The position numbers and the translations under genes are program-made. From a virus, in IMG/VR virus record IMGVR_UViG_3300047409_000559, positions 1 through 38,793 of that record: 38,793 nucleotides of DNA; one strand, written 5' to 3'. This document shows positions 6,279 to 35,926 of the stretch, piece after piece. A model generated the notes under the pieces. It did no database searches. It was given only the letters and a program-made list of their open reading frames with translations, and was not told where the DNA came from. Position 1 is the first letter of the stretch; the number at the start of each line of letters is the position of its first letter.

Positions 6279-7150
6279 TGGCCCGCAAACGTTACGTCAG
6301 TACCGACATCTCCACGGATTCTCGGATCCGCCGTCTCGCCGAACGCAGTGAGTTCGCCGCGCTGCTCTACACCTGGATGATTCCCCACGCCGCCGACGAC
6401 GCCACGCTGGTGTCCGATACCGACGAGCTGCTCATGCTCGTGGTGCCGGGCTTCAGGTGGCGCACCGCGGAGGACGTGGCCGTCGCTATCGACCACATGG
6501 TGGCGCTGGGGCTGGTGCTGCGCGAAGGCGACCGCCTGCGGTTTCCTGAAAAAGCCTTCTACAAAGCCCAGAGCTACATCACCGCCGAACGCCGCGGCCA
6601 TGCGGTAGAACCAGCACCCCCACCAGCCTCCAGCAACGGTACCGCGGATCAGCGTATTTCGCCGCAAAACACCGCAGAGTTGCAAACTGCGGCGGTACCG
6701 CCGCAAAACCCCACTTCGTTTAAGTCTTCGTCTTCGTTTAAGTCTTCGTCTTCGTTAACCCCCCCCGCTGCTGACGCAGCCCCCCCGCGGGGGGCACCAG
6801 CGGCGGCTGAAAGATTTTCAATCGAAGAGCAAGATCGCATCGACGCGGTGACGGTCGTCCTCGAGTCGTTCGGCATCTCCCACGATCCCGGGTTGTGGCG
6901 GAAAACCCTCGACACCTACGGGGGCCTCGACCTCCAGGCCGAAGCCCTCAAGCAAGCCGATTGGATGCGCCGCCACAAGATCAAAACGTGCTCCACCGCT
7001 CGCTACCTCGAGTGGCTGAACCGGGTCCGCAACGACACACGCCCCACCCGCTCGGCAGCCGACGCCGCTGCCGACGCGGAGGCCGCCAAATTGGCGTACT
7101 TCGAGCAGGAATTCGGCTACCTGCGGAACAAGACCACCGTGGCGTCCTGA
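6278..7150 (+). CDS. Phage replication initiator (winged-helix N-terminus, DnaD-like organisation)
   Basis: A 290-residue replication protein. Residues 1-100 (STDSRIRRLAERSEF; LLYTWMIPHA; FYKAQSYI) resemble the winged-helix N-terminal domain of phage replisome-organiser proteins. The middle (about 110-175) is a low-complexity linker with FKSSSSFKSSSS and Pro/Ala runs. The C-terminal domain (about 180-290) ends in a helical region with KTCSTARYLEWLNRV, of the type that recruits a helicase loader. The next gene encodes such a loader. The DNA of the linker carries repeats that could be the origin, as in lambda O. Confidence 0.7.
   Translation: MARKRYVSTDISTDSRIRRLAERSEFAALLYTWMIPHAADDATLVSDTDELLMLVVPGFRWRTAEDVAVAIDHMVALGLVLREGDRLRFPEKAFYKAQSYITAERRGHAVEPAPPPASSNGTADQRISPQNTAELQTAAVPPQNPTSFKSSSSFKSSSSLTPPAADAAPPRGAPAAAERFSIEEQDRIDAVTVVLESFGISHDPGLWRKTLDTYGGLDLQAEALKQADWMRRHKIKTCSTARYLEWLNRVRNDTRPTRSAADAAADAEAAKLAYFEQEFGYLRNKTTVAS
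6655..6800. other. Candidate replication origin inside the initiator gene
   Basis: Several elements cluster here: CCGCAAAAC twice (6662-6670 and 6702-6710); an 18-bp perfect palindrome TGCGGCGGTACCGCCGCA (6688-6705); an 18-bp tandem repeat with AT-rich TTTAA cores, about 2.4 copies (6715-6758); and a CCCCCCGCGGGGGG palindrome (6781-6794). Iterons plus a locally AT-richer stretch inside the linker of an initiator gene match the lambda-type origin layout. Confidence 0.5.
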
Positions 7151-8109
7151 TGCGCTCACTCACCGCCCTGCTCCATCCCACCGCCGCCGACCGTACCCCC
7201 GTCTCGACCTGGCCGCTCGAGAACATCCTGCGCCTGCCCCACACGCTCACCCTCCAGGCCCTCCTCGCCACCGTCGCCCTCGACGACCCTGGCGGCCTCG
7301 ATCGCCTCCGCCGTCTCGAACGCCAGCTCGTCGATGCCCACGAACGTGACCTCCTGGCCGCGTCCTTGCCGCCGGGCTGCTGGTGCTACGGCGCCGGCGG
7401 CAAGGACGAACGCGCCGTGCTCCTGCCCGGCGACGACGTGCCGCTGGTGCTCAGCACGTACTGCGGCTGCGCCATCGGCCAGGCCCGCAAACTCGCCGAT
7501 GACGACCTGCGCCAGCAGTCCAGAACCTGGCAGCACCAGGCCCGCCTGATGGGCATCTGGGAGGGCGCCAGAATCCCCGAGCGGTTCGCCAACTGCAGTT
7601 TTCTCACGTTCCCCTCCACGCCCCAGACGTCGCTCGCCATCGCCTCGTTGCGGGCCTGGCTGGTGAGTCCCGGCTGGGCCATCGTGCTGATGGGCAATTT
7701 CGGCGTCGGCAAGACCGGCCTCGCCATCAGTGCCTTGCGCGAAGTCGCCGAGCTCCAGCGCCGCCCCGGCCTGTTCGTCAAAACGCCCGACTTGCTCGCT
7801 CGCATCAAGGCCACCTACGCCAAAGACGCCACCACCACCGAAGCCACCGTGCTCGACAGCCTCCGCACCGTGGACTACCTGGTGCTCGACGACATCGGCG
7901 CCGACAAAGACACCGACTGGGCTACCTCCATGCTGTTCCAGGTGCTCGACGATCGCCACGACCACCAGCGCAAAACCATCGTTACCACCAACCTCGACCA
8001 CATGCATCTGGGCATGCATCTCGGCGCACGCACCATGCGCCGCTTCGAGGAGGACACGGTGTTTCTGACGGTGGACGGCCCCAACCTGCGACGGAGTGAC
8101 GCCGCGTGA
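7150..8109 (+). CDS. IstB/DnaC-like helicase-loader ATPase
   Basis: AAA+ ATPase of 319 residues that probably loads the host replicative helicase at the phage origin. Walker A is GNFGVGKT (182-189), Walker B LVLDDIG (244-250), sensor TTNLD near 275, and an arginine-finger region GARTMRRFEED near the C-terminus. The N-terminal half has cysteine pairs CWCYG and YCGCAIG that may bind zinc. Shares TGATG with the initiator, and a GTGA overlap leads on to the next gene. The order initiator then loader is standard for lambdoid replication modules. Confidence 0.85.
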   Translation: MRSLTALLHPTAADRTPVSTWPLENILRLPHTLTLQALLATVALDDPGGLDRLRRLERQLVDAHERDLLAASLPPGCWCYGAGGKDERAVLLPGDDVPLVLSTYCGCAIGQARKLADDDLRQQSRTWQHQARLMGIWEGARIPERFANCSFLTFPSTPQTSLAIASLRAWLVSPGWAIVLMGNFGVGKTGLAISALREVAELQRRPGLFVKTPDLLARIKATYAKDATTTEATVLDSLRTVDYLVLDDIGADKDTDWATSMLFQVLDDRHDHQRKTIVTTNLDHMHLGMHLGARTMRRFEEDTVFLTVDGPNLRRSDAA

Positions 8110-8240
8110 AACGGAGGAGCTCACGCGGCAAGTGGCAGCGGGAGTTGAGCCTTCGGTATGTGTCGCGGCACTGCCTGATACACGACTTCGCCGAACAACC
8201 GGTGCTCCGACTGGTGACAGGATCGGCACAGAGCGTATGA
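8106..8240 (+). CDS. Small basic protein (44 aa)
   Basis: GTG start in GTGA, stop in ATGA. Very basic N-terminus (VKRRSSRGKWQRELSLRYVS). No domain recognised. Support is mainly the overlap on both sides. Confidence 0.45.
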   Translation: MKRRSSRGKWQRELSLRYVSRHCLIHDFAEQPVLRLVTGSAQSV

Positions 8241-8365
8241 ACCTCGTGTGTCTCGTCCTGGGTCACCGCTGGCGGTTCTGGGTCCGTTCTCCCAGCCGTC
8301 TCCTGGCCCTCGATCGCTGCCAACGTTGCGGGAAAACCACCCCCCACTGGTCACGTCCCTCGTGA
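8237..8365 (+). CDS. DUF1660-like small zinc-binding phage protein (42 aa)
   Basis: MNLVCLVLGHRW and a later CQRCGKTTPHW resemble the short prophage proteins that begin with C-x3-GHKW and end in a CxRCG knuckle. Function unknown. Overlaps its neighbours by ATGA and GTGA. Confidence 0.55.
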   Translation: MNLVCLVLGHRWRFWVRSPSRLLALDRCQRCGKTTPHWSRPS

Positions 8366-8883
8366 AGTACCGAACCATCGTGGCCGATCCTCCCTGGCAC
8401 TACCCGTTTGGACATCCGGCACGCCAGCAGTACAAACACCCGTACCCCACACTGTCGATTGGCGAACTGTGCGAATTGCCGGTGAGTGATTGGGCCGATC
8501 AGTCAGCGCACTTGTTCTTGTGGACCACGAACGAGCATCTGCGTTACGCATTCCAGGTGCTCGGCGCGTGGGGCTTCACGTTCAAAAATGTCATCGTGTG
8601 GTGCAAGCCCGGTCTGGGAATGGGTGGCACGTTTCGCAACAGCCACGAACTGGTGCTGCTCGGAGAACGCGGTAAGTGTGAGCTGAAGCGGCGCGACGTC
8701 GGGACATGGCACGTCTTCCCAAACCCGAGAGAAAACAGCGCGAAGCCCGAGGGGTTTATTGATCTCGTCGAGTCTGTCTCGCATGGCCCGTACTTAGAAC
8801 TCTTTGCTCGCCGTCACCGCATGGGATGGGACGTGTGGGGCAACGAATCCGCCAACACCGCCAATCTGGAGTCAGCCTCGTGA
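8362..8883 (+). CDS. MT-A70-family adenine methyltransferase
   Basis: A 173-residue methyltransferase. VADPPWHY (residues 7-14) is the DPPW catalytic motif of the MT-A70 family, followed by AHLFLWTTNEHL, VIVWCKPGLGMG, and GPYLELFARR with GWDVWGNE at the end, all in the usual order. Phage members methylate adenine in DNA, so it probably modifies phage DNA against restriction. GTG start within a GTGA overlap. It is a different family from the enzyme at 4122-4916. Confidence 0.88.
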   Translation: MKYRTIVADPPWHYPFGHPARQQYKHPYPTLSIGELCELPVSDWADQSAHLFLWTTNEHLRYAFQVLGAWGFTFKNVIVWCKPGLGMGGTFRNSHELVLLGERGKCELKRRDVGTWHVFPNPRENSAKPEGFIDLVESVSHGPYLELFARRHRMGWDVWGNESANTANLESAS

Positions 8884-10263: not shown

Positions 10264-10632
10264 TTGATCGACCCAACCCTTGGTGTATCGGTTCGTTGCC
10301 GGGCGCGCAGCTCCCGGTCGGGAGAGCCATGTCAGCATTACCCGATGCGCGGCAGCACGGTCTGTCAGACCCATGGCGGGCGTGCTCCCCAGGTCAAAGC
10401 CTCAGCCGCTCAGCGCATCCGTGACCTCGCGCCAACTGCCCTCGACGTCATCGAGGCCCTGCTGAGTGAACCTGACGCGCCGGGCATTCGTCTCGCTGCT
10501 GCCCGCGACCTTCTCGATCGTGCTGGGTTCTCACCCAAGCAACGCATCGAGCACAGTGGAGAGGTCGCCAATGGCGATCGCCTTACCCCCGAGCAGCGCG
10601 CCGCCGTCGCCAAAGCCATCCTGGGAGACTGA
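10264..10632 (+). CDS. terS: Terminase small subunit (putative)
   Basis: DNA-recognition subunit of the packaging motor, assigned by position before the large subunit and by content. The N-terminus has CRARSSRSGEPCQHYPMRG and CQTHGGRAP, a Cys/His cluster often fused to phage small terminases; after it come helices with ALDVIEALLSEPDA and AARDLLDRAGF, which resemble the DNA-binding part. 122 residues from TTG 10264; the next codon is ATC and no ribosome-binding site is visible, so the start is uncertain. Confidence 0.65.
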   Translation: MIDPTLGVSVRCRARSSRSGEPCQHYPMRGSTVCQTHGGRAPQVKASAAQRIRDLAPTALDVIEALLSEPDAPGIRLAAARDLLDRAGFSPKQRIEHSGEVANGDRLTPEQRAAVAKAILGD

Positions 10633-12097
10633 TGCCGTCAACGAGGCGGCCCAGGATCACCTCGGCCTGTACGGCTATATCGCCCACGGTCACAAGCCGG
10701 CCACCGTCCACCGCCGCTGGATCGACGGCGCCACCGCCATCCTCAATGGCACCGGCCCGACCCGAAAACTGCTCATCGTGGCCCCGCCGGGCCATGCGAA
10801 AAGTACCTGGCTCAGTCTCATCCTGCCGCCCTGGTACCTGGGCAATCACCCCGACCACAGCCTGCTCTTCTTCACGTCCAGCGACACCATGGCTCGTCAA
10901 TTCGGTGGCACCGTGAAATCGACCCTGGAGCAAAACGATGCCCACACCGCCGTATTCGGTGACGTATCCGCTCGACCTGATGCTGGGCGTGGCTGGTCAA
11001 CCGATGGTCTGTACCTGCGCGGTGTGCCAGCAGGCTCGAAAGATCCTAGCTACCGCGCCCTGGGTTACGGCGCTGCTGTCGTTGGCGCACGAGCCCACGG
11101 CATCATCCTCGACGACCCCCTCACCCAGGAACAGGCCCGATCCCCCGTCGAGCAGCTCAAGGCCCGCCAGTACCACGACCTGACCGTCGATTCCCGCCTC
11201 CACCCCGACGGCTGGGAACTGGCGATCATGACCCGCTGGCACGACAACGACCTCGCCGCGCACCTCGCCAGTAAATCCGAGTGGGCCGTGCTCACCCTCC
11301 CCGCCCTGGACCCCGACGACAACGCCCTCTGGCCCGAGAGATTCAGCGCCGATTGGCTGAAAGCCAAACGGGCCGAAATCGGCGGCGCCCAGTTCAGCGC
11401 CATCTACCAGGCCGATCCTCGAGCCCTCGGCGGCCTCGTCTTCAAGGAATCCTCGTGGTTCCGGCCCATGCCCACTGACCTCGACCGAGCCACCCTCACC
11501 ATCGTGCAGTTCTGGGATACCGCGTTCAGCGATCGCCAGACCGCCGACTACTCCGCCTGCTGCACCCTGGGCATTCACCCCGACGGTCGTATGTTCCTGC
11601 TCGAGCTGTTCCGCGCCCGTCTCACCCCCGCCGACCTCGAAGCCGCCATGCTGGCCAGGATCGCGCTGTGGCGCCCGTCAGCCGTCGGCGTCGAAGAAGT
11701 CGCGTTCCGCCAGGCCGCCATCGCCGACATCGTCCAGCGTCTCGCACAGCGCGCCTCTGCCCGTGTGCAGGCCGTCAAGCCCATGGGAGACAAGGTGGCT
11801 CGAGCCTACCTGCCCGCCGGCCGCGGCGAAGCCGGCCTGCTGTACGCCGACCGTGCCGCTCCCTGGTTCCCGCCCTTTGAATCTGAGGCCCTCGGCTTCC
11901 CGCTGAGCTCGCATGACGACCAGGTCGACGCGTTGTCTGGCGCGGCCCAGATGGCCGTCGACCACCTGGCTACGCGAGCCCGCGCGCACGACCTCGCCGA
12001 CCTGGCCAGCAACACGCTGCCCATCGTGCGCCATACCGGCAATGGCGTCCCCCGCCTCGACCCGAAGCTCGAGGGCATGTTCGGCATCCGCCGATGA
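10571..12097 (+). CDS. terL: Terminase large subunit
   Basis: ATPase-nuclease of the DNA packaging motor, 508 residues. Walker A is APPGHAKST (71-79), Walker B GIILDDP (177-183), coupling motif MTRWHDNDL (220-228). The RNase-H-like nuclease shows FWDTAF (D316), GVEEVAF, and HDDQVDALSG near the end. The ATG at 10571 is chosen for its GGAGAGG ribosome-binding site 6 nt upstream; it overlaps the small subunit by 62 bp. It is joined to the portal gene by ATGA. Confidence 0.93.
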   Translation: MAIALPPSSAPPSPKPSWETDAVNEAAQDHLGLYGYIAHGHKPATVHRRWIDGATAILNGTGPTRKLLIVAPPGHAKSTWLSLILPPWYLGNHPDHSLLFFTSSDTMARQFGGTVKSTLEQNDAHTAVFGDVSARPDAGRGWSTDGLYLRGVPAGSKDPSYRALGYGAAVVGARAHGIILDDPLTQEQARSPVEQLKARQYHDLTVDSRLHPDGWELAIMTRWHDNDLAAHLASKSEWAVLTLPALDPDDNALWPERFSADWLKAKRAEIGGAQFSAIYQADPRALGGLVFKESSWFRPMPTDLDRATLTIVQFWDTAFSDRQTADYSACCTLGIHPDGRMFLLELFRARLTPADLEAAMLARIALWRPSAVGVEEVAFRQAAIADIVQRLAQRASARVQAVKPMGDKVARAYLPAGRGEAGLLYADRAAPWFPPFESEALGFPLSSHDDQVDALSGAAQMAVDHLATRARAHDLADLASNTLPIVRHTGNGVPRLDPKLEGMFGIRR

Positions 12098-15080: not shown

Positions 15081-16901
15081 ATGCCTGACAACCCGTACGC
15101 GCGGTCGATCGAAACCGCGGCCAACACGCTGGCCGCCGCCAATGCCGACTGGGATCGCATCAACCAGGCCATGGAGGCCATCCCGGCCACTGACAAGGCC
15201 ACGGGCGGCCCCAGGGAGAACGAGTACGCCAGCCTAGCGAAGCAGCTCGACGCGGCAGCCAAACGGTCGGCCACCAGTGAGGCGGCCTATCAGACTGCCA
15301 TCACTGAGTCAGACAAGGCCGCCGTCCAGGCCAAGACCTACCAACCCAAGGGCACCCCGCGCGACCGACTCGACACCACCAGCGGCAACGTGCTGGTCAC
15401 CATTCGCGAGATCGCCGACGGTCAGGGCGGGTGGACCCTCGACAAGACGACGCCCATCACCAAAGTCAACGTCTCGGGCGCACCCGGCGACCAGAAGGTG
15501 ACCGCCGCGCCGACGTCGCGGATGATCCTGGTCGATGGTGTCCTGAAAGACAACCCCGCGTACGAGCCGCCGAAACCGGCCGCCGGTGGCGCCGTGCCGA
15601 CGTCCGAGTTCATCTACGACGGCGCTGGCAACCCTGTCAGAAACCCGGCGTACGTGCCGCCCAAGACACCGGACGAGGCGCTTACCACGGGTGGCAAAGC
15701 CGTCGACGCGGCCACGGCAGCCAATGCAGCCGCCACCGCCTCGGCCAACCTGACCACGCTGCAGACCAACGCTGACGTGGCCAAGGCCAACCTGGAGGAC
15801 GCCCAGCGACGAGCTCGTCAGGCGCCGTCCGATGCCCAGGCCCAGCAGGCCATCCAGAACGCGCTGGACACGGCGCAAACTCAGAACGACACCGCGCAGC
15901 AAGCCCTGGCCCAGGCCCGAGCCCTGGCACCTGGGGCCGTCGCCCAGCAGGGCGCCACCCTGGCCAGCACCCAGGCCGCCACGGCCGCCAGCAACGCCAC
16001 GGTGCAGCAGGGCCTGCAGGGGCCGATTCTGTACGGGCTGCAGGACAGGATCAAACAGATCCACGACCTGATCGCCGCGGGCTCGATCACGCCCCAGGAC
16101 GCGGACCAGATGATCGCCGCCGCCAAACGCGGCACAACCCCGTACGACATTCAGAAACAGCAGGCCACCGACGCCCTGACGGCACGCGGCCAGGACGTCA
16201 CCAACCGCGACAGTCTGGCCAGCACCTACGGCAACCTGATTGGTAGCGCCGGGACCATGTTCGGCGACCTCAACAAAAACGGTCAGCCAGGCTCGGATGC
16301 CAGTGGTCGCGCGTACCTGGCCATGATGGGCATGGCTCAGGACTACCTGAAATCCCAGCAGGTGCCGGCAGCCACTCCCACGGATTACCTGGGGACCGGT
16401 CCTAACCCGAATCCCAGCCCCATTGGCAACATGGTCAACCAGGCCCAGAAGCAGCTCGACGCGGGCGGTCCTGCCGTCGCGACAACGCCGGCGGCTATGC
16501 CGCAGACGACGTACGGGGGTCTGGCGCAGGGTGGGGCGAACCTGGGTGGGATGAATCTGTACCCGACGCCTGGCTCATCAGGGGCGCCGATCGGTGGTCT
16601 GGCACAGGGCGGCACCGATTCGACTGGCCACACCATCACGATCAACATCGGCGGCACCGGCGCGGGCACCCCGGCGCCGGTCGTGGCCCCAGGCGTGGCC
16701 GGGACGGGGCTCAACCCCAGCGTGCAACCGCTGGCTGGCTTCAGCAACCGCACGGTGGGCGGTGCCCAGGATCTGTACGGCGCTGGCCCGTCGAGCGTGA
16801 GCGGTCTGGTCGGCGCTGCCGCTCGAGCGGTGCCTGGCACACCCGCCGACGTGGCGTCCCTGTATCCAAATGCGGCTGCCAGGCACGGCATGCAGTACTA
16901 G
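15081..16901 (+). CDS. Ala/Gln-rich virion protein, probable internal or ejection protein (606 aa)
   Basis: N-terminal half is long helical coiled coil (AANTLAAANADWDRINQAME; NADVAKANLEDAQRRARQA; ALDTAQTQNDTAQQALAQAR). The C-terminal 150 residues are Gly/Pro-rich with two GGLAQGG repeats and a TITINIGGTG strand. The location between portal and scaffold matches internal core/ejection proteins of short-tailed phages. No catalytic motif. Only 3 bp separate it from the preceding gene. Confidence 0.6.
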   Translation: MPDNPYARSIETAANTLAAANADWDRINQAMEAIPATDKATGGPRENEYASLAKQLDAAAKRSATSEAAYQTAITESDKAAVQAKTYQPKGTPRDRLDTTSGNVLVTIREIADGQGGWTLDKTTPITKVNVSGAPGDQKVTAAPTSRMILVDGVLKDNPAYEPPKPAAGGAVPTSEFIYDGAGNPVRNPAYVPPKTPDEALTTGGKAVDAATAANAAATASANLTTLQTNADVAKANLEDAQRRARQAPSDAQAQQAIQNALDTAQTQNDTAQQALAQARALAPGAVAQQGATLASTQAATAASNATVQQGLQGPILYGLQDRIKQIHDLIAAGSITPQDADQMIAAAKRGTTPYDIQKQQATDALTARGQDVTNRDSLASTYGNLIGSAGTMFGDLNKNGQPGSDASGRAYLAMMGMAQDYLKSQQVPAATPTDYLGTGPNPNPSPIGNMVNQAQKQLDAGGPAVATTPAAMPQTTYGGLAQGGANLGGMNLYPTPGSSGAPIGGLAQGGTDSTGHTITINIGGTGAGTPAPVVAPGVAGTGLNPSVQPLAGFSNRTVGGAQDLYGAGPSSVSGLVGAAARAVPGTPADVASLYPNAAARHGMQY

Positions 16902-18719: not shown

Positions 18720-21700
18720 ATGCCGGTCAACTTCGCGCTGACCCCCGATCAGCTCAACGGCTTCCAGGCCGACCAGTGGGCACAGAAGGCCAATACCGCC
18801 GTGGCCGACGCCTGGCAGGCGCAACAGGTGGCGAACCTGCAGCCCATGCCCGTGCCACCCCCGCCGGCTCTGACCGCGCCCACGCCCAGCGACAGCCTCA
18901 CTCAACCGATGCAGGCGGCGCCGCAACCTGCCCCTTTAGTCGGCACCGTTCCAGAGGGCACGCCCAGTACTGACGCGTCTGTACCCCCGCCGGTAGCGAC
19001 CTCAGCCCCATCACCTGTTACCGCGCCACTCGTCTTTCCCAGCGCACCACCGCCGACCCAGCAGCCGATCGCGCCAGCGCCACCACCTTCGCCCGACGAG
19101 ACGATCAGCAACCCCTTTGGGGAAGCGTTCCGCCAACTCCAGGGCATCACCCAACCGCAAGCATCCGCGCCACCGCCGTCGCCCATACCTACGTGGTCGG
19201 CGCCCACGGGCAGTGACACGCTGACGAACCCCATCCAGACGCAAGCCAACCAGGCCACTGGTGGCGACCTGGAAAGCATCGTGCGCGACAGCGCCGCCCG
19301 CTACGGCATTGATCCCGACACGGCCGTACGCGTGGCTATGAGTGAAGGCGGCCTGTCCGAAGGCGCGCGACCGGGCGACTCGGGCTCGAGCTTCGGGCCG
19401 TTCCAGCTCCACTACGGCGACGTCGCCAGCGGTGGCAATGCCGTGAGTGGCCTGGGGGATGCGTTCACCGCGGCCACGGGTTTGGACGCCCGCGATCCTA
19501 ACAACGCGGCCGCGGCCATCGACTACGCCCTGAGCAACGTGGCGAAATCGGGCTGGGGGCCATTCCACGGCGCGGCGCGCGTGGGCATCGGTCCCATGGA
19601 TGGCATTGGCGGCCGACCGTCGAACCTGGCCCCCACGCCGTCCGATGCGCTGACCAACCCACTGGGCAGTGGGCCGGCTGCGAGAACCTCGCAATTCGGC
19701 CTGGGGTTGAGCGCCCAGGCCGCGTACGCCGCGTGCGGACCCGCCGCTGCCATCGCGTTTGCCAACACCTACGGCCGGTTTCCTACGCCCTCCGAAGCCA
19801 TGCAGCTCGCCAGCAGCGTGGGCTGGACCGCCGATTCGGGCATGGCCGGCGTGTCGTCCGAACAGCAGTTGCTCGGCAAGATGGGCATTCCCACCAAGCT
19901 CGAGTCGACGGTCGATTGGAACCACGTGGCCGCCGATGCCGCCAACGGCAACCCCGTGATACTCGACACGCCCGGCCACTATTTCTACGTCAGTGGTGTC
20001 CGCCAGGGACAGAACGGGCTCGAGTTCAACGTCGGCACCAGCGGCACCGACTTGCGCCAGGGCAGCCAGTGGATGAGCGCGGCCCAGATCGGCGGCGTGG
20101 GCATGGGCGCTGTCCGTGCCGCGCTGTATGCGGACAACCCCACCAGTGCCACGCCCAGCGTGGCCGCGCCCGCCCAGCCGTCTACACCTGGTCCTGCCCA
20201 GCAGGCATCCCAGTGGATGACCAAGGCCAACCTGGTGGCCGGCGTCACTCCCGACGAGACGATCTCCAATCCGTTCGGCGACGCGCTCCGACAGGCAGGC
20301 GACATCGCGGGCGGCATCGGCTCAGCCGTCGGGAATGCAGCCAGCAGCGTCGGCTCAGCCGTCCAGGGTGCCCTGGCTCCGCAGCCACTCACCGCTGCTC
20401 AGCAGCCCACGCCCAGCGACAGTCTGACGAACCCCACCCTCAGCACGGTGCCGCCGGCTGACCGCTCCACGGTACCGTCGACACCCGGCGCCACCGAGGG
20501 GCCAATCTCCCCAGGCATCCCCATCGTAAGCGGCGCGGGCAACCTGGCCGCCAACGCGATCAACACCGTCGGCGATGCGGTCAAGTCGAACATCGAGAAC
20601 GACCCCAGTCTGCCTGCCGTGGCATTGCGGGCGCTCACCGGTGGCGAGAGCTCCACGGCGATCTCGCGCGACCTGATGGCGAAATACGGCACCACCATCC
20701 CCGATGACCGGTTCACCCCCGATGACCGGGAGCGCGCCGGCAACCTGGTCATGCTCATTGGCGGCATGGAGCTTGGCGGCGGCAAAGAAGCCGTGGACGC
20801 GCTGGGCAACAAGATCGCTCCGCTCGAGGAACAGGCCGCGCAGATGGCTGGCCGTACGCTCGAGGGTGGCGCGGGACTGCTGGGCCTTGGGCGGGATGCG
20901 GGCGCAGCCGGCGCCGTCCCAGAGCCGCCCGTCAATCCCTTCGCCCTGCACACCGAGCCTGCGCCAGGCCGCGTCCCTCTCAACGACGAGGATATCGCGA
21001 CGCACGTCGAAGACCTGGCCTCGCGCTACGAAGCCAATGACGCGCGTATTCAGCAGTTGCAGGACGTCATCGCCAACAAAGGCAAGGGCGAGTACTCCGG
21101 CAACATCGTGCGCCCGTCGTGGGCTATCGGGTGGTCGGACGATGCGCTACGCGCGCTGGCCAAACGCGAGGGCCTCAACCCCAACGATCCGACGTGGGGA
21201 TCACGCGCGCAGGACGCCGCCTATCAGTCAGGGCTCAAGGGCACCGGCACCACGCCGCTCACACCGCCCCAGGCTCGGGCGGAGATCGCGCGGCTGGCCG
21301 CGGAGAATCAGCAATTGCTGGACGCCACTGATCTGCCCGAAGGGGCGGCGACCCTGTACCGCGGAGCACCCCAGGCCGCAACCGAGCTCCCATTCGATCG
21401 GCCGTATACTGCCCCCGATGACGCCGGCGCAGCAGGAGCGAATCCGCGCAGCGCAAGCCAAAATCCGGCGACTGCACCAGGCAGCACTGGAGCGGCAGCG
21501 CCGCTTCGAGCAACAGAACCCGGCGCAGTCCCAGCCCCAGCCGAAGCCACAACCCCGGCCGTAGTTTCTCCCGCCGCGGTCGTCGAGCGAGGCGCGGGTG
21601 GCCAGCCACCACTCTTGCCCACCACCGGTCTACCGCCTGGGCCGCCACCATCCCCCATCACCCCGGTGTTGCAGCGGCTGGACGCGATGTACGCGCCGGC

Positions 21701-24329
21701 CAAGGTGCCCAATCCTGCCAGCATCCCCGCACGCTTAGAGGCTGCCCGTCAGAGCATCGCCACCAACATCACCCGTGGCTTTTCCGATCGTCAGGTCGAC
21801 ATCAACCACATCCAAGAAGCCTACGGCCGCTCTCTCGGCCGCCCACTCAACGCCGACGAGATGGCCGCAGAGCTCCAGCGTCTGTCCGCGGGTGGTTCCG
21901 CCATGGTCGACGTGCAGCAAGGACTCAGGCCCGCGCTGCAGGCGGTGGGCAACGACTACAACGCGCTCCGGAACTACGTCACCTTGCGGTCCAACGTCCA
22001 GGTTGCCGACGCACTGGGCAACGACGCCCGCCACTTTTCGGGGGGTCTCACCAAGGCCGACTCTCAGCAGGGCATCGCCGAACTGCAGCAAACCCTGGGG
22101 CCTGATCGCTTCGCGAAAGTTCAGCAGGCCGCCGACCAGGTCACGCAGTTCTCGAACAGTCTGCGGCAGCGTCTGGTCGATAGTGGCGTTCTGAGCACCG
22201 AGCAGGCGGCCCAGATGGAAGCCAAGTATCCCGACTGGGTAAAAACGCGCATCCTCGACTACATGCGAGATCCCGTCGGTGGTCAGGGCGCGGGCACCAA
22301 GATTGGACTGGCGTCGAACGATGTGCATGCGTATACGCAGGCCGGTACGCAGCTCGCCCGTGAGGATCCGATCGCCTCGACGGTGGCCTACGCCCACCAG
22401 GTCGAACAGATGGCGAGGAAAAACGAGGCATTTACCGCGTTCCGACAGATGGATCAGCAGAGCGCCGCGCCGGCTCTACGGAAAGTCCCGCAGGATTACT
22501 CACCCACCGCCAACCAGACGACCATGGTCGGTTTCGAGGATGGCCAGAAGGTCAAGTACGTGACCGATAACAAGGCGCTCGGCGAGGCGATCAACGGCGC
22601 GGGGGTGATGTCAACGCCGGGATGGACGAGCGCCTGGTCAAAAATCTTCCGGTCGCTGGCCACCTCGAGGAACCCCGCGTTTCTGGTCGGCAATGCTGCC
22701 CTGGACATTCCCACGGCGACGCTCCGCACGGCGATCAGAGAGGGTGGCCCACAGCACGTGCCGGGCATCCTGGCCGACATGGCCAATGGGTATGCCGACG
22801 CGTTCCAGGGGATTCTGAGCAGCACGTACCACGGCGCCACGGCCGATTTTCTCAAAGCTGGCGGGGGTCAGTCGGGCTACTTCACGGGCAGTGAAGGCGC
22901 CGCGGCGCAGAGCGTGGCTGCCCTGCGCCGGTCCAACGTGTTCCAGATCCAGGGCAAGGGTGATCTGCTCAGACTGGCGAAAGACCTCGTCACCCTGAAA
23001 CCCATCGAAGCGCTGGGCGAGCGGGTAGAGCTCGGGCCGCGGGTGATGGCCTACCAGCGTGCCCTGAAGCGTGGCGAGAACCTGACCAAAGCCGTCATCG
23101 ACGGTCGCACCGTCACCGTCGATTTTTCTCAAGGCGGCACCGTCACCAAGTACCTCAACAACTTCATCCCGTTTTTCAACGTGGCGGCCCAGGGACCGGT
23201 GCAGGTGGCGCGCGCGTTCCGAGACAATCCGAAGGCGTTCGCGGCCACCGTCGGCACCGTGCTGGGAATGCCCACGCTTGCCGCCGAGGCGTGGAACCGC
23301 TCGGACCCGCAGCGTGCCGCCGACTACAAAGACATCCCCGACTACATCAAAAACCAGGGCATTGTCGTCATGCTGCCGGGAGAGGCGCCGAAGGATGCCC
23401 AGGGCAATCGCAAGCCACTCTATGCCCTGATCAAGACCAGGGAGTGGTCGCCGTTCGTGTCGCTGGCGAGGGATGCCGCGGCGCGGGCGTTGGGCGACGA
23501 CACGAAATCGTGGCAGAACATCGCGCTGTCAGCAGCGTCTGGAGCGAGCCCGAACAATGCCACCAGCTTTGGCCAGGCCGCCGCTGAACCGCTGAGTGGC
23601 ATTCCGGCGATTCCCGCCGCGGCGCAACTTGCGCAGAACCGCGACTGGTTCCGCAATTCCACGATCGTCACGCAGCGCAACGATGACAACGCCAGCGCGG
23701 CGTCCAAGACGCTGGCCCCGATCATCCAGGCCGCCGTCGACAAGCTGGGTATCAACGCGACGGTGAGGCCGTCCGCGCTCGATTTTCTCATCAAAGACCA
23801 GGGCGCGGGAGTTGGCAGCGCGGGGTTAGCCGCGGCTGACATGGCGGCGGGTACGCCACGGAAAGACAACTCGCCCCAGAGTTTGCCGGTGGTGGGTGGC
23901 CTGATAAATCGGTTCGTGGGCTCGTCGACGGGCCAGATGTTCCAGAATGCCAGCGACCAGCCCGTATCGGTCCCCGTCGAAAAGGCACTGAACGCGGCCG
24001 GGATTCCGACGCCCAGCATTCCCACGTCGATCCGGGTGAAAAACCAGTTGACGGGCAGTCTCAGCCCGCCGATGCAACTCTTGCAGACGGAACGGGTCGA
24101 CTATCAGCGACTGATGTCTGACCGACTCGACCAGCGACTGGCGCCGATGCTGGCCGATCCGAACTGGTCGAAGCGCACCATCGAGAGCCAGAAGAAGGCG
24201 CTCGATGTCCAGGTCCAGGCCGCGCGCGACTACGCCGAGAGCACGGTGTACGGGAAGATGGATCCCACCGACCGTCAGGCCAGAATGGCGGCGGGACGTC
24301 TGGCGTCCGCGCCCAGGCCGAAGCCCTAG
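18720..24329 (+). CDS. Giant polyvalent virion protein: lytic transglycosylase, C39-like peptidase, LPD38-like region (1,869 aa)
   Basis: Probably an ejected internal protein that opens the cell wall and supports DNA entry. Order: Pro-rich N-terminus (1-180); lysozyme/transglycosylase-like domain about 184-290 with E209 in AMSEGG and SSFGPFQLHY; C39-like peptidase about 325-465 with C339 (AACGPAAA) and H420 (GHYFYVSG); low-complexity and helical linkers (470-900); then a long helical region with RNPAFLVGNAALDIPTATL (near 1310) and FIPFFNVAAQGPVQVARAF (near 1484), as in large polyvalent proteins (LPD38). The motif [TG]SD[SAT]LT[NQ]P occurs four times and PDETISNPFG twice. An overlapping ORF with better codon composition lies at 21418-21564. 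No frameshift is evident. Confidence 0.8.
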   Translation: MPVNFALTPDQLNGFQADQWAQKANTAVADAWQAQQVANLQPMPVPPPPALTAPTPSDSLTQPMQAAPQPAPLVGTVPEGTPSTDASVPPPVATSAPSPVTAPLVFPSAPPPTQQPIAPAPPPSPDETISNPFGEAFRQLQGITQPQASAPPPSPIPTWSAPTGSDTLTNPIQTQANQATGGDLESIVRDSAARYGIDPDTAVRVAMSEGGLSEGARPGDSGSSFGPFQLHYGDVASGGNAVSGLGDAFTAATGLDARDPNNAAAAIDYALSNVAKSGWGPFHGAARVGIGPMDGIGGRPSNLAPTPSDALTNPLGSGPAARTSQFGLGLSAQAAYAACGPAAAIAFANTYGRFPTPSEAMQLASSVGWTADSGMAGVSSEQQLLGKMGIPTKLESTVDWNHVAADAANGNPVILDTPGHYFYVSGVRQGQNGLEFNVGTSGTDLRQGSQWMSAAQIGGVGMGAVRAALYADNPTSATPSVAAPAQPSTPGPAQQASQWMTKANLVAGVTPDETISNPFGDALRQAGDIAGGIGSAVGNAASSVGSAVQGALAPQPLTAAQQPTPSDSLTNPTLSTVPPADRSTVPSTPGATEGPISPGIPIVSGAGNLAANAINTVGDAVKSNIENDPSLPAVALRALTGGESSTAISRDLMAKYGTTIPDDRFTPDDRERAGNLVMLIGGMELGGGKEAVDALGNKIAPLEEQAAQMAGRTLEGGAGLLGLGRDAGAAGAVPEPPVNPFALHTEPAPGRVPLNDEDIATHVEDLASRYEANDARIQQLQDVIANKGKGEYSGNIVRPSWAIGWSDDALRALAKREGLNPNDPTWGSRAQDAAYQSGLKGTGTTPLTPPQARAEIARLAAENQQLLDATDLPEGAATLYRGAPQAATELPFDRPYTAPDDAGAAGANPRSASQNPATAPGSTGAAAPLRATEPGAVPAPAEATTPAVVSPAAVVERGAGGQPPLLPTTGLPPGPPPSPITPVLQRLDAMYAPAKVPNPASIPARLEAARQSIATNITRGFSDRQVDINHIQEAYGRSLGRPLNADEMAAELQRLSAGGSAMVDVQQGLRPALQAVGNDYNALRNYVTLRSNVQVADALGNDARHFSGGLTKADSQQGIAELQQTLGPDRFAKVQQAADQVTQFSNSLRQRLVDSGVLSTEQAAQMEAKYPDWVKTRILDYMRDPVGGQGAGTKIGLASNDVHAYTQAGTQLAREDPIASTVAYAHQVEQMARKNEAFTAFRQMDQQSAAPALRKVPQDYSPTANQTTMVGFEDGQKVKYVTDNKALGEAINGAGVMSTPGWTSAWSKIFRSLATSRNPAFLVGNAALDIPTATLRTAIREGGPQHVPGILADMANGYADAFQGILSSTYHGATADFLKAGGGQSGYFTGSEGAAAQSVAALRRSNVFQIQGKGDLLRLAKDLVTLKPIEALGERVELGPRVMAYQRALKRGENLTKAVIDGRTVTVDFSQGGTVTKYLNNFIPFFNVAAQGPVQVARAFRDNPKAFAATVGTVLGMPTLAAEAWNRSDPQRAADYKDIPDYIKNQGIVVMLPGEAPKDAQGNRKPLYALIKTREWSPFVSLARDAAARALGDDTKSWQNIALSAASGASPNNATSFGQAAAEPLSGIPAIPAAAQLAQNRDWFRNSTIVTQRNDDNASAASKTLAPIIQAAVDKLGINATVRPSALDFLIKDQGAGVGSAGLAAADMAAGTPRKDNSPQSLPVVGGLINRFVGSSTGQMFQNASDQPVSVPVEKALNAAGIPTPSIPTSIRVKNQLTGSLSPPMQLLQTERVDYQRLMSDRLDQRLAPMLADPNWSKRTIESQKKALDVQVQAARDYAESTVYGKMDPTDRQARMAAGRLASAPRPKP
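21418..21564 (+). CDS. Possible overlapping gene: basic Gln/Arg-rich coiled-coil peptide (48 aa)
   Basis: Lies in the +1 frame inside the giant virion gene. It starts at ATG 21418, 7 nt after TATACT (21405-21410), and ends in TAG. The product begins MTPAQQERIRAAQAKIRRLH and ends in a Gln/Pro tail, a plausible basic helix. Third-position GC by my count is 38 of 48 codons here against about half in the main frame over the same bases, the reverse of what a shadow ORF normally gives. It may be a real overprinted gene or a remnant of an older gene end absorbed into the fusion. Confidence 0.35.
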   Translation: MTPAQQERIRAAQAKIRRLHQAALERQRRFEQQNPAQSQPQPKPQPRP

Positions 24330-24505
24330 CTGTCTGAGTGGTGCAGTTGCGCGACGGCCAGGTTGACCGCCTGGCGACGGCGTTCTGCCTCTCGATTGGC
24401 GGCCTTCTCACGCGAATGGTTGACGAGTTGCTCGACGACGATCGAGATCGTGGTGATGACCAGAAACGCGAGGCCGACAATGCCGATGATCTGCTCGAGA
24501 GTCAT
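24326..24505 (-). CDS. Small one-TM membrane protein (59 aa), second gene of a reverse-strand pair
   Basis: The ATG at 24505-24503 is in an ATGA overlap with the upstream gene, and the TAG at 24328-24326 overlaps the convergent stop of the giant gene through a CTAG. The product begins MTLEQIIGIVGLAFLVITTI, a single TM segment at residues 5-25, followed by a highly charged helix (REKAANREAERRRQ). Function unknown. A reverse-strand membrane pair inside a late operon is the arrangement of a moron gene expressed from the prophage. Confidence 0.65.
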   Translation of the reverse strand: MTLEQIIGIVGLAFLVITTISIVVEQLVNHSREKAANREAERRRQAVNLAVAQLHHSDS

Positions 24506-24762
24506 AGTTGGAACCGTGGCCGACGGAGCACGTAGACACTCGACGGAGCACCAGTCATGGCGCTGCTTACCGTTCCGACACGTTCGATTTCCCAGCCCTC
24601 CGCGAGCCGACCTCTGAGACTGGGCGTTGTCGTCTCGTCGCTGCTGGTCAGTGTGGTGACCTCGGTTCGGTCGTAGAGTGGGACCACTCCTGAGATAGCC
24701 AGAACAGAGACGATTCCGAGTAGCCAGCCTCCAGTCAGGGTGATGGCGAGCTTGCGTTTCAT
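24502..24762 (-). CDS. Membrane-anchored small protein (86 aa), first gene of a reverse-strand pair
   Basis: MKRKLAITLTGGWLLGIVSV forms an N-terminal signal anchor. The outer part ends in EGWEIERVGTVSSAMTGAPS and SVYVLRRPRF, which resembles the small W-E-x-x..v..LRRP domains of DUF4177 type. The ATG at 24762 lies 11 nt after a -10-like TATAAC, so the leader is very short. Translationally coupled to the 59-residue gene. Possible roles include superinfection exclusion or lysis inhibition; none is shown. Confidence 0.7.
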   Translation of the reverse strand: MKRKLAITLTGGWLLGIVSVLAISGVVPLYDRTEVTTLTSSDETTTPSLRGRLAEGWEIERVGTVSSAMTGAPSSVYVLRRPRFQL

Positions 24763-24773
24763 GGGTGAGCGTG

Positions 24774-24779
24774 GTTATA
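24774..24779 (-). promoter_or_regulatory. -10-like element of the reverse-strand membrane-protein pair
   Basis: TATAAC on the reverse strand, with the ATG 11 nt downstream. No -35 hexamer is clear. It would drive the pair independently of the late operon. Confidence 0.4.
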
Positions 24780-24805
24780 CGCCGCGCTTCGAAAAAGGGA
24801 GGTGT

Positions 24806-24866
24806 GTTTCGTTCTCGCGTCGGGTTACGAAACGGTTAAGGGTGCGTGGTTTGCAAGAATCTTGCA
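24806..24866. promoter_or_regulatory. Operator-like inverted repeats between divergent units
   Basis: GTTTCGT (24806-24812) with ACGAAAC (24827-24833), and TGCAAG-AAT-CTTGCA (24852-24866). They lie between the reverse-strand membrane pair and the rightward scaffold/capsid genes, where a regulator would be expected. Confidence 0.4.
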
Positions 24867-24933
24867 GACCGTCGAGTTTGTACCCGTGTGATACCGTGTA
24901 GTCACCCCAGCCGCTGACGCAAGTTAGCCAGCG

Positions 24934-24965
24934 AGGCCCCGACCGTCAGGTCTGGGCCTTTTTTT
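24934..24965 (+). terminator. Intrinsic terminator before the scaffold gene
   Basis: Hairpin AGGCCC-C-GACC-GTCA-GGTC-T-GGGCCT (24934-24959) followed by seven T (24959-24965). It lies 34 bp upstream of the scaffold start, so it either ends transcription from the giant gene or gates entry to the capsid genes. Confidence 0.85.
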
Positions 24966-26877: not shown

Positions 26878-27834
26878 ATCGCAACTTCGACATATGGAAC
26901 CCTGACGGCTGAACAGCGCACCTTCTACGTTGGGGTGCTCATCAAACGGCTTCTGCCGTATCTGCCCCTGATTGGCGACGGCCAGAAAGTCACCATCCCC
27001 AAACACATGGGCCTGGTGGCCAACTTCAGAAAATACGGTGTGTTGTCGCTGGCCACCACGCCACTGTCCGAGGGTGTCACGCCCGCGGGCAACTCCCAGG
27101 TGGTCACCGCGGTCACGGCCACAGCTGCCCAGTACGGGGATTTTCTCACCGTCAGCGACGTGCTCGAGACGGCGGGCATCGACGACAGCGTCGTCCAGGC
27201 CGTCGAGCAGTTGGGCGAGCAGGCGGGCCAGACGATCCACCGTCTGGTCGTCAACGAGCTGGGCGCGGGCTCGACGGTGCGCTACCCCTCGACCGCCGTC
27301 AGCCGGGTCACGGTGGCCGTGGGCATGAATATGAGTGTGGCACTGATCCGATTGGCGGTCAGAGACCTGGAAAATGCCAACGTCCCGAAATTTTCCGACG
27401 GTTTTTACCACGCCGCGGTGACTCCCGCGCAGAAGTACGACCTGATCACAGATCCAGCGTGGCAGGACATTTACCGGTACACCAACACCCGACCGATGAT
27501 GGCCAACGAAGTCGGCGAGGTGTACGGCGCGCTGGTTCGTGAAACCACCGATCTGCCGATCTACCCGACGGGTGGCGCGGCGGGCATCCCGGTGCATGCG
27601 GCCGTTCTATATGGACCGAATGCGTACGGCGTCATCGACCTCGAGTCGATGGGCGTGGGCAGCATCAACGACGAGACCAACAAGGGGGTGAATGTGTTCA
27701 CCACGGGCCTCGACGTGCCGTCGAAGTCGGACCCATTGCACCAGCGGGCGTACGTCGGCTGGAGCGTGGTATTCGTGGCCAAGGTGCTCGACGTCCTGCG
27801 CGTCATCCGCGTCGAGACGGCAGTAAGTCCGTAG
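26878..27834 (+). CDS. Major capsid protein, N4-gp56 family (no canonical start codon at the expected N-terminus)
   Basis: Main shell subunit with HK97-like fold. Recognised from TYGTLTAEQRTFY, LIKRLLPYL, KVTIPKHMGLVANFRKYG, LATTPLSEGVTP, AQYGDFLTVSDVLE and LGEQAGQTIHRL, the N4-gp56 pattern. In-frame codons before the first GTG (26935) already encode this conserved N-terminus, but the frame holds no ATG, GTG or TTG between the stop at 26848 and that GTG. Family alignment places the start at ATC 26878, before GCA ACT TCG, 7 nt after AAGGG. I give 318 residues from that ATC; starting at GTG 26935 would lose 19 residues of the core N-terminus. HNH genes flank it on both sides. Confidence 0.82.
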   Translation: MATSTYGTLTAEQRTFYVGVLIKRLLPYLPLIGDGQKVTIPKHMGLVANFRKYGVLSLATTPLSEGVTPAGNSQVVTAVTATAAQYGDFLTVSDVLETAGIDDSVVQAVEQLGEQAGQTIHRLVVNELGAGSTVRYPSTAVSRVTVAVGMNMSVALIRLAVRDLENANVPKFSDGFYHAAVTPAQKYDLITDPAWQDIYRYTNTRPMMANEVGEVYGALVRETTDLPIYPTGGAAGIPVHAAVLYGPNAYGVIDLESMGVGSINDETNKGVNVFTTGLDVPSKSDPLHQRAYVGWSVVFVAKVLDVLRVIRVETAVSP

Positions 27835-34741: not shown

Positions 34742-35926
34742 ATGAGCAGTTTTGTAGATCCGCAGAATGGCGACCTGGCAACCGCGGAGCACGTCGCGCA
34801 GCTCGTCGAGGATTTCCAGGGGCTGCGCAACATCCCAATTTCGCTGTCGGGCATCAACGACGCGGCCACGTACGCGTTGACGTTGAAAAACGCGGGCACG
34901 GGCTCGAGGGATCTGATCGCCTATGCGGCGGATGGCACGACGGTGCTGCTCCAGGTGGACGCGACGGGGGTGACGCTGGGCGCGCCGGTCAATGTGCCAC
35001 CGGGGAGTATCTCGGGCTCGGCGATTGCCGCGGGCTCGATCACCAATGCCATGCTGGGCCCGGACGTCGCGCGCGCCAACCTACTGTGTAATGGTTCGAT
35101 GGACGTGTGGCAGCGTGGCAATGGGCCGTTCACGATCGGCGGCGTGTACGGCACTGACCGGTGGATGGGTGCGCCAGCCGGTACGGACACGCTGTCCATC
35201 AGTAAAGACACCGCCAACGTGGACGTCGGGTCCAACGCGTGTGCCGCCTGCACCTTTGTCCTGGGAACAGGGGCGGGCACCACACAGTTTCGTCAGTACC
35301 TGCTCATCACGACTGACCCGTACCCGTTGCGCGGCCGTACGATTTCTTTGAGTCTGCGTGTCCGCACCAGTACGGCCAATGCCGTTCGCGCGAGCGTGGT
35401 ATCCGACGGCACCGGGGCGGTCCAGTTGTGGTCGGGGTTCCACACCGGCGGCGGTGCCTACGAGACCCTCACCGTCACGTACAGCGTGCCGACGAACGCC
35501 ACGTACGTCGGCGTCATGGCGACCTTTACCGCCTCCTGCACGGCGTACGTGGACAACGCCATGCTGGTGGTGGGCAGCCAGGCGGCCAACTACGTGCCCA
35601 TGCACCCGGCCGACGACCTCGCGCGGTGTCTGCGGTATTACGAGGTGCTCGGTGATCCAGCCGGTGGAGACTTGCTGCTAGGGGCGATTGCGACCGCCGG
35701 CGCGCAGATCATCCGTGGCACGTTCCCCTACAAAGCCGTCAAGCCCGTATCACCCACGGTCACCAAAGTCGGTACGTGGGGGCTGACCAACGCGGGCGGA
35801 CAACCGACCATGATCACGGGATCGAAAAACAACACGGCGTGGTATCTCGGCTCGACGGCCGCAGGAGAATACTTCACCTCCAACTCGGCGGCGACGACGT
35901 GTTTCACGGTGGAATCGAATCCTTGA
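34742..35926 (+). CDS. Tail fibre / receptor-binding protein with carbohydrate-binding-like domain (394 aa)
   Basis: The ATG directly abuts the preceding TAG. N-terminal attachment part (1-110) with a GSISGSAIAAGSITNAML shaft-like repeat. ARANLLCNGSMDVWQRGNG and YGTDRWMGAPA (about 117-145) are the hallmark of phage fibre carbohydrate-binding domains; a jelly-roll follows, then PADDLARCLRYYEVLG, the conserved start of the C-terminal tip domain. Likely host-recognition protein. Confidence 0.8.
   Translation: MSSFVDPQNGDLATAEHVAQLVEDFQGLRNIPISLSGINDAATYALTLKNAGTGSRDLIAYAADGTTVLLQVDATGVTLGAPVNVPPGSISGSAIAAGSITNAMLGPDVARANLLCNGSMDVWQRGNGPFTIGGVYGTDRWMGAPAGTDTLSISKDTANVDVGSNACAACTFVLGTGAGTTQFRQYLLITTDPYPLRGRTISLSLRVRTSTANAVRASVVSDGTGAVQLWSGFHTGGGAYETLTVTYSVPTNATYVGVMATFTASCTAYVDNAMLVVGSQAANYVPMHPADDLARCLRYYEVLGDPAGGDLLLGAIATAGAQIIRGTFPYKAVKPVSPTVTKVGTWGLTNAGGQPTMITGSKNNTAWYLGSTAAGEYFTSNSAATTCFTVESNP

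Follow-up and report, generated by a model that had tools for sequence, protein, structure and literature searches.

Hidden genes have been described within actinobacteriophage methylase genes, in HNH insertions of the ShiLan type; in the part of that account that bears on layout, the ShiLan insertion is open in the frame of the host gene and carries a hidden open reading frame (ORF) that starts 18 bp into the insertion and ends in its last bases (PMC11855218). In phiX174, gene E lies complete within gene D in a different frame, and the portion of PMC8227390 relevant here indicates that the older of two such frames can be inferred from codon usage. A third related system is formed by the LPD38 phage-type polyvalent proteins, for some loci of which the passages of PMC5512222 used here raise the possibility of recombining cassettes. 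Here, we describe a 166-base module within a polyvalent-protein gene that is probably dual-coding, in that sequence comparison points to its +1 frame being a small gene internal to an exchangeable linker.

The window, by which we mean the whole stretch of 38,793 bases that was analysed (GC 65%), is a tailed-phage virus record. For its terminase, the best matches listed were <32% identical and spread over many hosts, and no tRNA was found in the window. The gene that contains the module is a giant gene of 1869 codons. LPD38 (PF18857) was detected near the C-terminus of its product (28.7 bits, with a Pfam cutoff of 27), together with a weak match to Peptidase_C39_2 that was below the Pfam cutoff. 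The giant gene had no blastn match in the phage collection and no relatives among the genome contigs. Immediately 3′ of it, ~630 bases (24330-24963) contain no ORF of at least 100 codons on the + strand, though the adjoining genes are tightly packed.

The first-pass annotation had noted a 48-codon ORF in the +1 frame inside the giant gene, with TATACT 7 nt before its ATG and with higher third-position GC than the main frame, and each of these features is indeed present (Table 1). GC content at codon positions 1/2/3 over the nested ORF is 0.80/0.49/0.80 in the +1 frame and 0.79/0.81/0.50 in the main frame, which translates the module as a Pro/Ala/Thr/Gly-rich linker. Given that the +1 frame opens far 5′ of the nested ATG (the ORF is listed from 20704), the ATG is marked by an apparent onset of conservation rather than by the opening of the frame. 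The 8-base sequence CGGCCGTA is found at both edges of the module. It occurs five times on the + strand of the window, against the one or two occurrences per strand that we estimate from base composition. On the - strand, a 38-base match (16811-16848; 82% identity, E 6e-4) to a reverse-complemented portion of the nested ORF sits within a large upstream gene and is probably due to chance.

Table 1. Features of the window relevant to the nested ORF
Feature	Coordinates	Strand	Basis or remark
Terminase large subunit	10466-12097		
Giant gene, 1869 codons, phage-type polyvalent protein	18720..24329	+	ORF list, Pfam
Module common to the window and two records with different flanking main-frame sequence	21399..21564	+	Alignments
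CGGCCGTA, left copy of 8-base direct repeat at module edge	21399..21406	+	
TATACT, -10-like	21405..21410	+	Putative element, 7 nt before nested ATG
Nested +1-frame ORF, 48 codons (44-48 in relatives)	21418..21564	+	ATG 21418, TAG 21562-21564; substitution pattern, codon usage
CGGCCGTA, right copy of 8-base repeat	21556..21563	+	Overlaps nested stop codon
Major head protein	26935-27834		
Tail-fibre-like protein	34742-35926		

We gathered 18 related records using parts of the giant gene and the nested peptide as queries; 15 cover the position of the module, and the other three (L027, L031 and L034) begin downstream of it. Two of the 15, IMG/VR records 3300046718_000241 (hereafter L014) and 3300047319_001490 (L015), encode the nested peptide with 89% and 86% identity, respectively, and with its start and stop codons, so that both codons are kept in 3/3 full copies. 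In both records the peptide is likewise +1 relative to the giant gene, and the open small frame extends 5′ of the ATG in each of the three full copies. Both edge copies of CGGCCGTA are present in the window and in L015 (7982 and 8139), and only the left copy in L014. A further record, 3300046529_001096 (L017), retains a remnant in which a deletion has removed the ATG and the first half of the ORF and preserved the main frame. The remaining 12 records lack the module. Since the module is missing from 12/15 records and its start is lost in one more, the nested ORF is dispensable.

The sequence around the module differs among its carriers, on both sides in L015 and mainly downstream in L014. L015 shares 18720-20893 of the window's giant gene at 89% and then has differing main-frame sequence; beyond 20893, the module alone (21399-21563) matches, at 86%, and the two then differ up to a short match at the C-terminus. 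In L014, identity to the window is 89% over 20922-21548 and about 69% further downstream. The swap site lies mid giant gene, at 20890-21760 of the window and in the matching part of L014-L020, L022, L023 and L025. In L015-L018 an N-terminal part with 86-89% DNA identity to the window is followed by unrelated domains; at the swap site, L020 has a GNAT acetyltransferase domain and L018 a sub-threshold ART-PolyVal match. L022 and L023 have neither the module nor the neighbouring domain, and the edges of their empty site are not clean; where they have a short linker, L014 carries a domain-plus-module insert, in the region 7100-8400 of that record. The peptide FRAPE flanks this insert on both sides in L014. 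On these alignments, the module and the sequence immediately 5′ of it form a domain exchange point.

To ask which frame is constrained, we counted substitutions over 119 aligned bases, from the nested ATG to just before the repetitive tail. Differences at main-frame positions 1/2/3 were 6/2/2 between the window and L014, 9/1/2 between the window and L015, and 8/1/2 between L014 and L015. Main position 1 is the third position of the small frame. For these three pairs in turn, 2/8, 3/11 and 3/10 of the changed codons were amino-acid-changing in the small frame, as against 7/8, 10/11 and 8/10 in the main frame, and random placement of equal numbers of changes yielded as few small-frame amino-acid changes with P values of 0.0008, 0.0012 and 0.0022. 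A least-change count on the three-copy tree, with one three-state site counted twice, gave 17 inferred changes, distributed 12/2/3 over main positions 1/2/3. The 12/17 at position 1 corresponds to P = 0.002 against an expectation of one third and to P = 1e-5 against a linker control, the latter value being approximate because that control pools overlapping windows.

Other parts of the giant gene diverge mainly at position 3. Counts at positions 1/2/3 were 33/18/179 over 720 codons between the window and L015, 39/20/199, 48/28/191 and 38/22/194 in the comparisons with L016, L017 and L018, and 6/6/38 beside the module between the window and L014. Relative to control sequence from the same gene, the module differs with Fisher P values of 1e-5 (window and L015) and 0.003 (window and L014). 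Position 3 also leads in 97/97 linker windows, defined as at least 70% Pro/Ala/Ser/Thr/Gly/Val (23, 24, 25 and 25 in the four comparisons); thus, tolerance of Ala/Pro/Thr exchanges does not make position 1 lead elsewhere. In a frame-inversion scan of 14 record comparisons (7786 overlapping windows; 3017 had 10 or more differences with a single leading position and were retained), five windows were frame-inverted. Four of these span gene junctions near 12097 and 14151, and the fifth is the module in the window-L014 comparison; in the window-L015 comparison the module is an isolated match without surrounding context for such a scan. We conclude that the second frame carries the pattern of purifying selection, as read from only 17 changes among three full copies.

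The extent of this pattern appears to follow the ORF. Three changed sites 5′ of the ATG fall at main positions 3, 3 and 1, and the constraint seems to set in at or after the ATG, three sites being too few for this to be firm. In a 54-base block of the L017 remnant, differences at small-frame positions 1/2/3 were 1/4/3 against L015, 1/4/5 against the window and 2/5/4 against L014, and among the intact pairs they were 1/1/3, 0/0/5 and 1/1/5. Small-frame constraint thus seems to disappear with the start codon, albeit on small numbers. Of the three options that the first-pass annotation had left side by side, namely an overprinted gene, the fossil of a gene end and programmed frameshifting, the first is the one we favour, given that start and stop are kept in all full copies, that most changes are silent in the small frame and that the pattern is lost without the ATG. 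Its refuting condition, relatives with only the main frame preserved, gave a divided answer: of the 15 records at this position, two retain the ORF, one has a remnant lacking the start and 12 do not have the segment.

Codon usage also singles out the small frame. Over the bases of the nested ORF, the codon adaptation index (CAI) and third-position GC (GC3) are 0.70 and 0.79 in the small frame and 0.45 and 0.46 in the main frame. Small-frame CAI is 0.70, 0.72 and 0.68 in the window, L014 and L015, main-frame CAI is 0.45, 0.43 and 0.51, and the mean for the giant gene is 0.70. The top 12 of 364 windows of the giant gene, ranked by excess of +1 over main-frame codon usage, start at 21360-21525 and all overlap the nested ORF. 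Any Ala/Pro/Gly linker is GC-rich at position 1, from which a high small-frame GC3 follows, and we therefore do not take the GC3 contrast alone as proof. The independent oddity is the low GC3 of the main frame: values of 0.46, 0.46 and 0.51 in the window, L014 and L015 were reached in 0 of 4000 synonymous shuffles each (mean 0.79). Another Pro/Ala-rich stretch, near 18945, has GC3 down to 0.60, which indicates that part of the dip at the module is typical of linkers generally. Composition by itself is insufficient to settle the case for a nested gene, and the relatives add more. From codon usage, we infer that the small frame is the older coding frame.

An older small frame is also what would be expected of a fossil, that is, of DNA that once coded in the small frame, as a free gene or the end of one, was captured out of frame and now serves as linker only, with a pattern that predates capture. 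The accessory nature of the module, its position at domain-swap borders and the lack of any translation signal seen are likewise consistent with such a history. However, silent divergence in the small frame (9/40 between the window and L015) is like that of third positions in the shared N-terminal part (179/720), so constraint seems to have acted while the module was embedded in the giant gene. Were the small frame dead since the shared ancestor, divergence would have been left on main third positions: about 10/40 would be expected to have changed after capture between the window and L015, and 2/40 did (P = 0.001 under the rate of the gene). The case against a fossil rests chiefly on this shortfall. 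In addition, changes at main position 1 occurred on all three branches, and a fossil would otherwise need three separate captures in one phase and with one left edge. The timing argument presupposes common descent of module and backbone; had giant genes exchanged the module, the dates would shift but the same-phase embedding of the copies would stand. With constraint that lasted as long as the divergence of the host gene, we regard a fossil as unlikely, although it is the strongest of the competing explanations.

Programmed +1 frameshifting near 21399-21418 would produce a short form of the giant protein ending at 21564, with approximately residues 1-899, a basic helical tail and no LPD38 half. 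That in every full copy the small frame opens before the ATG, and that its stop sits in the linker separating the N-terminal part from the C-terminal part, would suit such a product. A conserved slip site, however, was not found (main codons preceding the ATG region are GCC CCC GAT in the window and L015, GCT GCC GAT in L014), the RNA fold of 21380-21580 resembles that of shuffled sequences (z-score 0.36) and so provides no stimulatory structure, and small-frame conservation seems to start at the ATG, which frameshifting does not need. We consider frameshifting improbable. Much the same holds for a plain linker, under which GC-rich DNA happens to leave the frame open and the pattern arises from a small sample of Ala/Pro/Thr/Ser exchanges, which fall at position 1. 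An open +1 frame is not in itself unusual, being kept in 92% (window), 86% (L014) and 99% (L015) of synonymous shuffles, and the changes number only 17; but a plain linker predicts at least as many changes at position 3 as at position 1, which is true of the gene's other linkers in the same phage pair and not of the module, and it leaves the main-frame GC3 outside the range of the shuffles, so that we give it little credence. We rejected an antisense gene, which would share the same third position and is nearly as conserved (12/29 changed codons amino-acid-changing, as against 8/29 for the small frame), since that frame has no start, is Cys/Trp-rich and contains a stop in L014; an RNA element was rejected because the fold is no better than that of shuffles and the changes show a period of three.

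On the favoured reading, of a small gene nested in the linker, the predicted product is a 44-48-residue protein with a basic helix of ~30 residues followed by a Gln/Pro-rich tail. AlphaFold2 modelled the 48-residue peptide as one helix at residues 3-33 (mean pLDDT 83.5) with a tail lacking regular structure. Of the basic amphipathic helix proposed by the first-pass annotation, the helix and its basic character (net charge +7) are borne out, and amphipathicity is suggestive only, since the hydrophobic moment of 0.46 is reached by 6.8% of shuffles. The peptide had no match in Pfam or PHROGs, nor in phage records (tblastn), genome contigs or PDB sequences, and the DNA of 21340-21600 had none among plasmids. 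A free-standing source was sought elsewhere in nine related viral records, and 3/9 matched, each only at the module. A degenerate RIRRLHQAA pattern found five stretches, of which two are the known records and three (L009, L012 and L013) are due to chance; the two known records were also all that emerged from another peptide scan and from a pattern built on the left part of the module.

We found neither a Shine-Dalgarno site before the nested ATG, where several other genes of the window have purine-rich leaders, nor a sigma-70-type promoter for the nested ORF. The -10-like element reads TATACT, TATACT and TACACT in the three copies, and the 7-base gap to the ATG is kept. TANNNT at this distance occurs at 1/458 ATGs in the window, the nested ATG alone; the other likely gene starts that were listed all lack it. 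Such an element would place a transcript start near the ATG, although its conservation is partly due to the Tyr-Thr codons of the main frame. Some high-GC bacteria commonly use leaderless starts with a TANNNT box; for the module, a leaderless start at TAYACT is a guess only. Leaderless initiation has also been proposed for the hidden ORFs of the ShiLan type (PMC11855218, in section 4.3).

These observations suggest a model in which the giant gene would read through the module with a shift of one base, as an unstructured linker that joins exchangeable domains, and in which the nested ORF would be an accessory gene, gained and lost with exchange of linker and domain. More speculatively, the nested ATG might be used through internal initiation on the giant-gene mRNA or on a short leaderless transcript from near TAYACT, and the modelled helix might bind nucleic acid, the giant protein or some other partner. 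A bolder version, which we offer tentatively and think somewhat doubtful, is that of a mobile "swallowed gene": a tiny cassette with a -10-like element, an ATG and a stop, taken up between two domains of a polyvalent protein and read one base off as linker. The same bases would then be a hinge, a domain exchange point with CGGCCGTA at both edges and a still-selected small gene, in the layout of ShiLan without the endonuclease. Linkers of giant mosaic proteins are usually regarded as filler. Should a selected gene indeed lie hidden in this one, a class of small phage proteins is being missed by gene finders limited to a single frame per locus, and such proteins can be sought in domain linkers; the codon-position test against linkers of the same gene is applicable to any polyvalent-protein family.

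The giant gene resembles the LPD38 phage-type polyvalent proteins of PMC5512222 in being large and multidomain, with LPD38 and exchangeable domains. An out-of-frame gene within a polyvalent protein is not described in the portion of that paper considered here, and we found no report of one in the open-licence literature, which is not proof of absence. With the ShiLan-type insertions (PMC11855218), the module shares a host gene whose frame stays open across the segment, a hidden ORF that occupies the segment in a different frame (from 18 bp in to the last bases in ShiLan, from 19 bp in to the end in the module), a patchy distribution and the lack of a Shine-Dalgarno site. However, the ShiLan ORF encodes a 195-residue endonuclease with HNH and zinc fingers and lies within an enzyme, whereas the module encodes 44-48 residues with no known domain and lies within an inter-domain linker, with no sign of homing and no clean empty site seen. 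Searches of Pfam and PHROGs for an HNH endonuclease domain in the nested frame were negative, and the prediction is of a single helix. Given that the layout is the same and the product different, we do not file the module as a ShiLan member. Finally, as in phiX174, a complete ORF lies within another gene in a different frame and its genealogy can be read from codon usage; but in the part of PMC8227390 that treats this pair the big gene, D, is the older, whereas in the module codon usage points to the small frame as the older and to the linker of the big gene as the newcomer.
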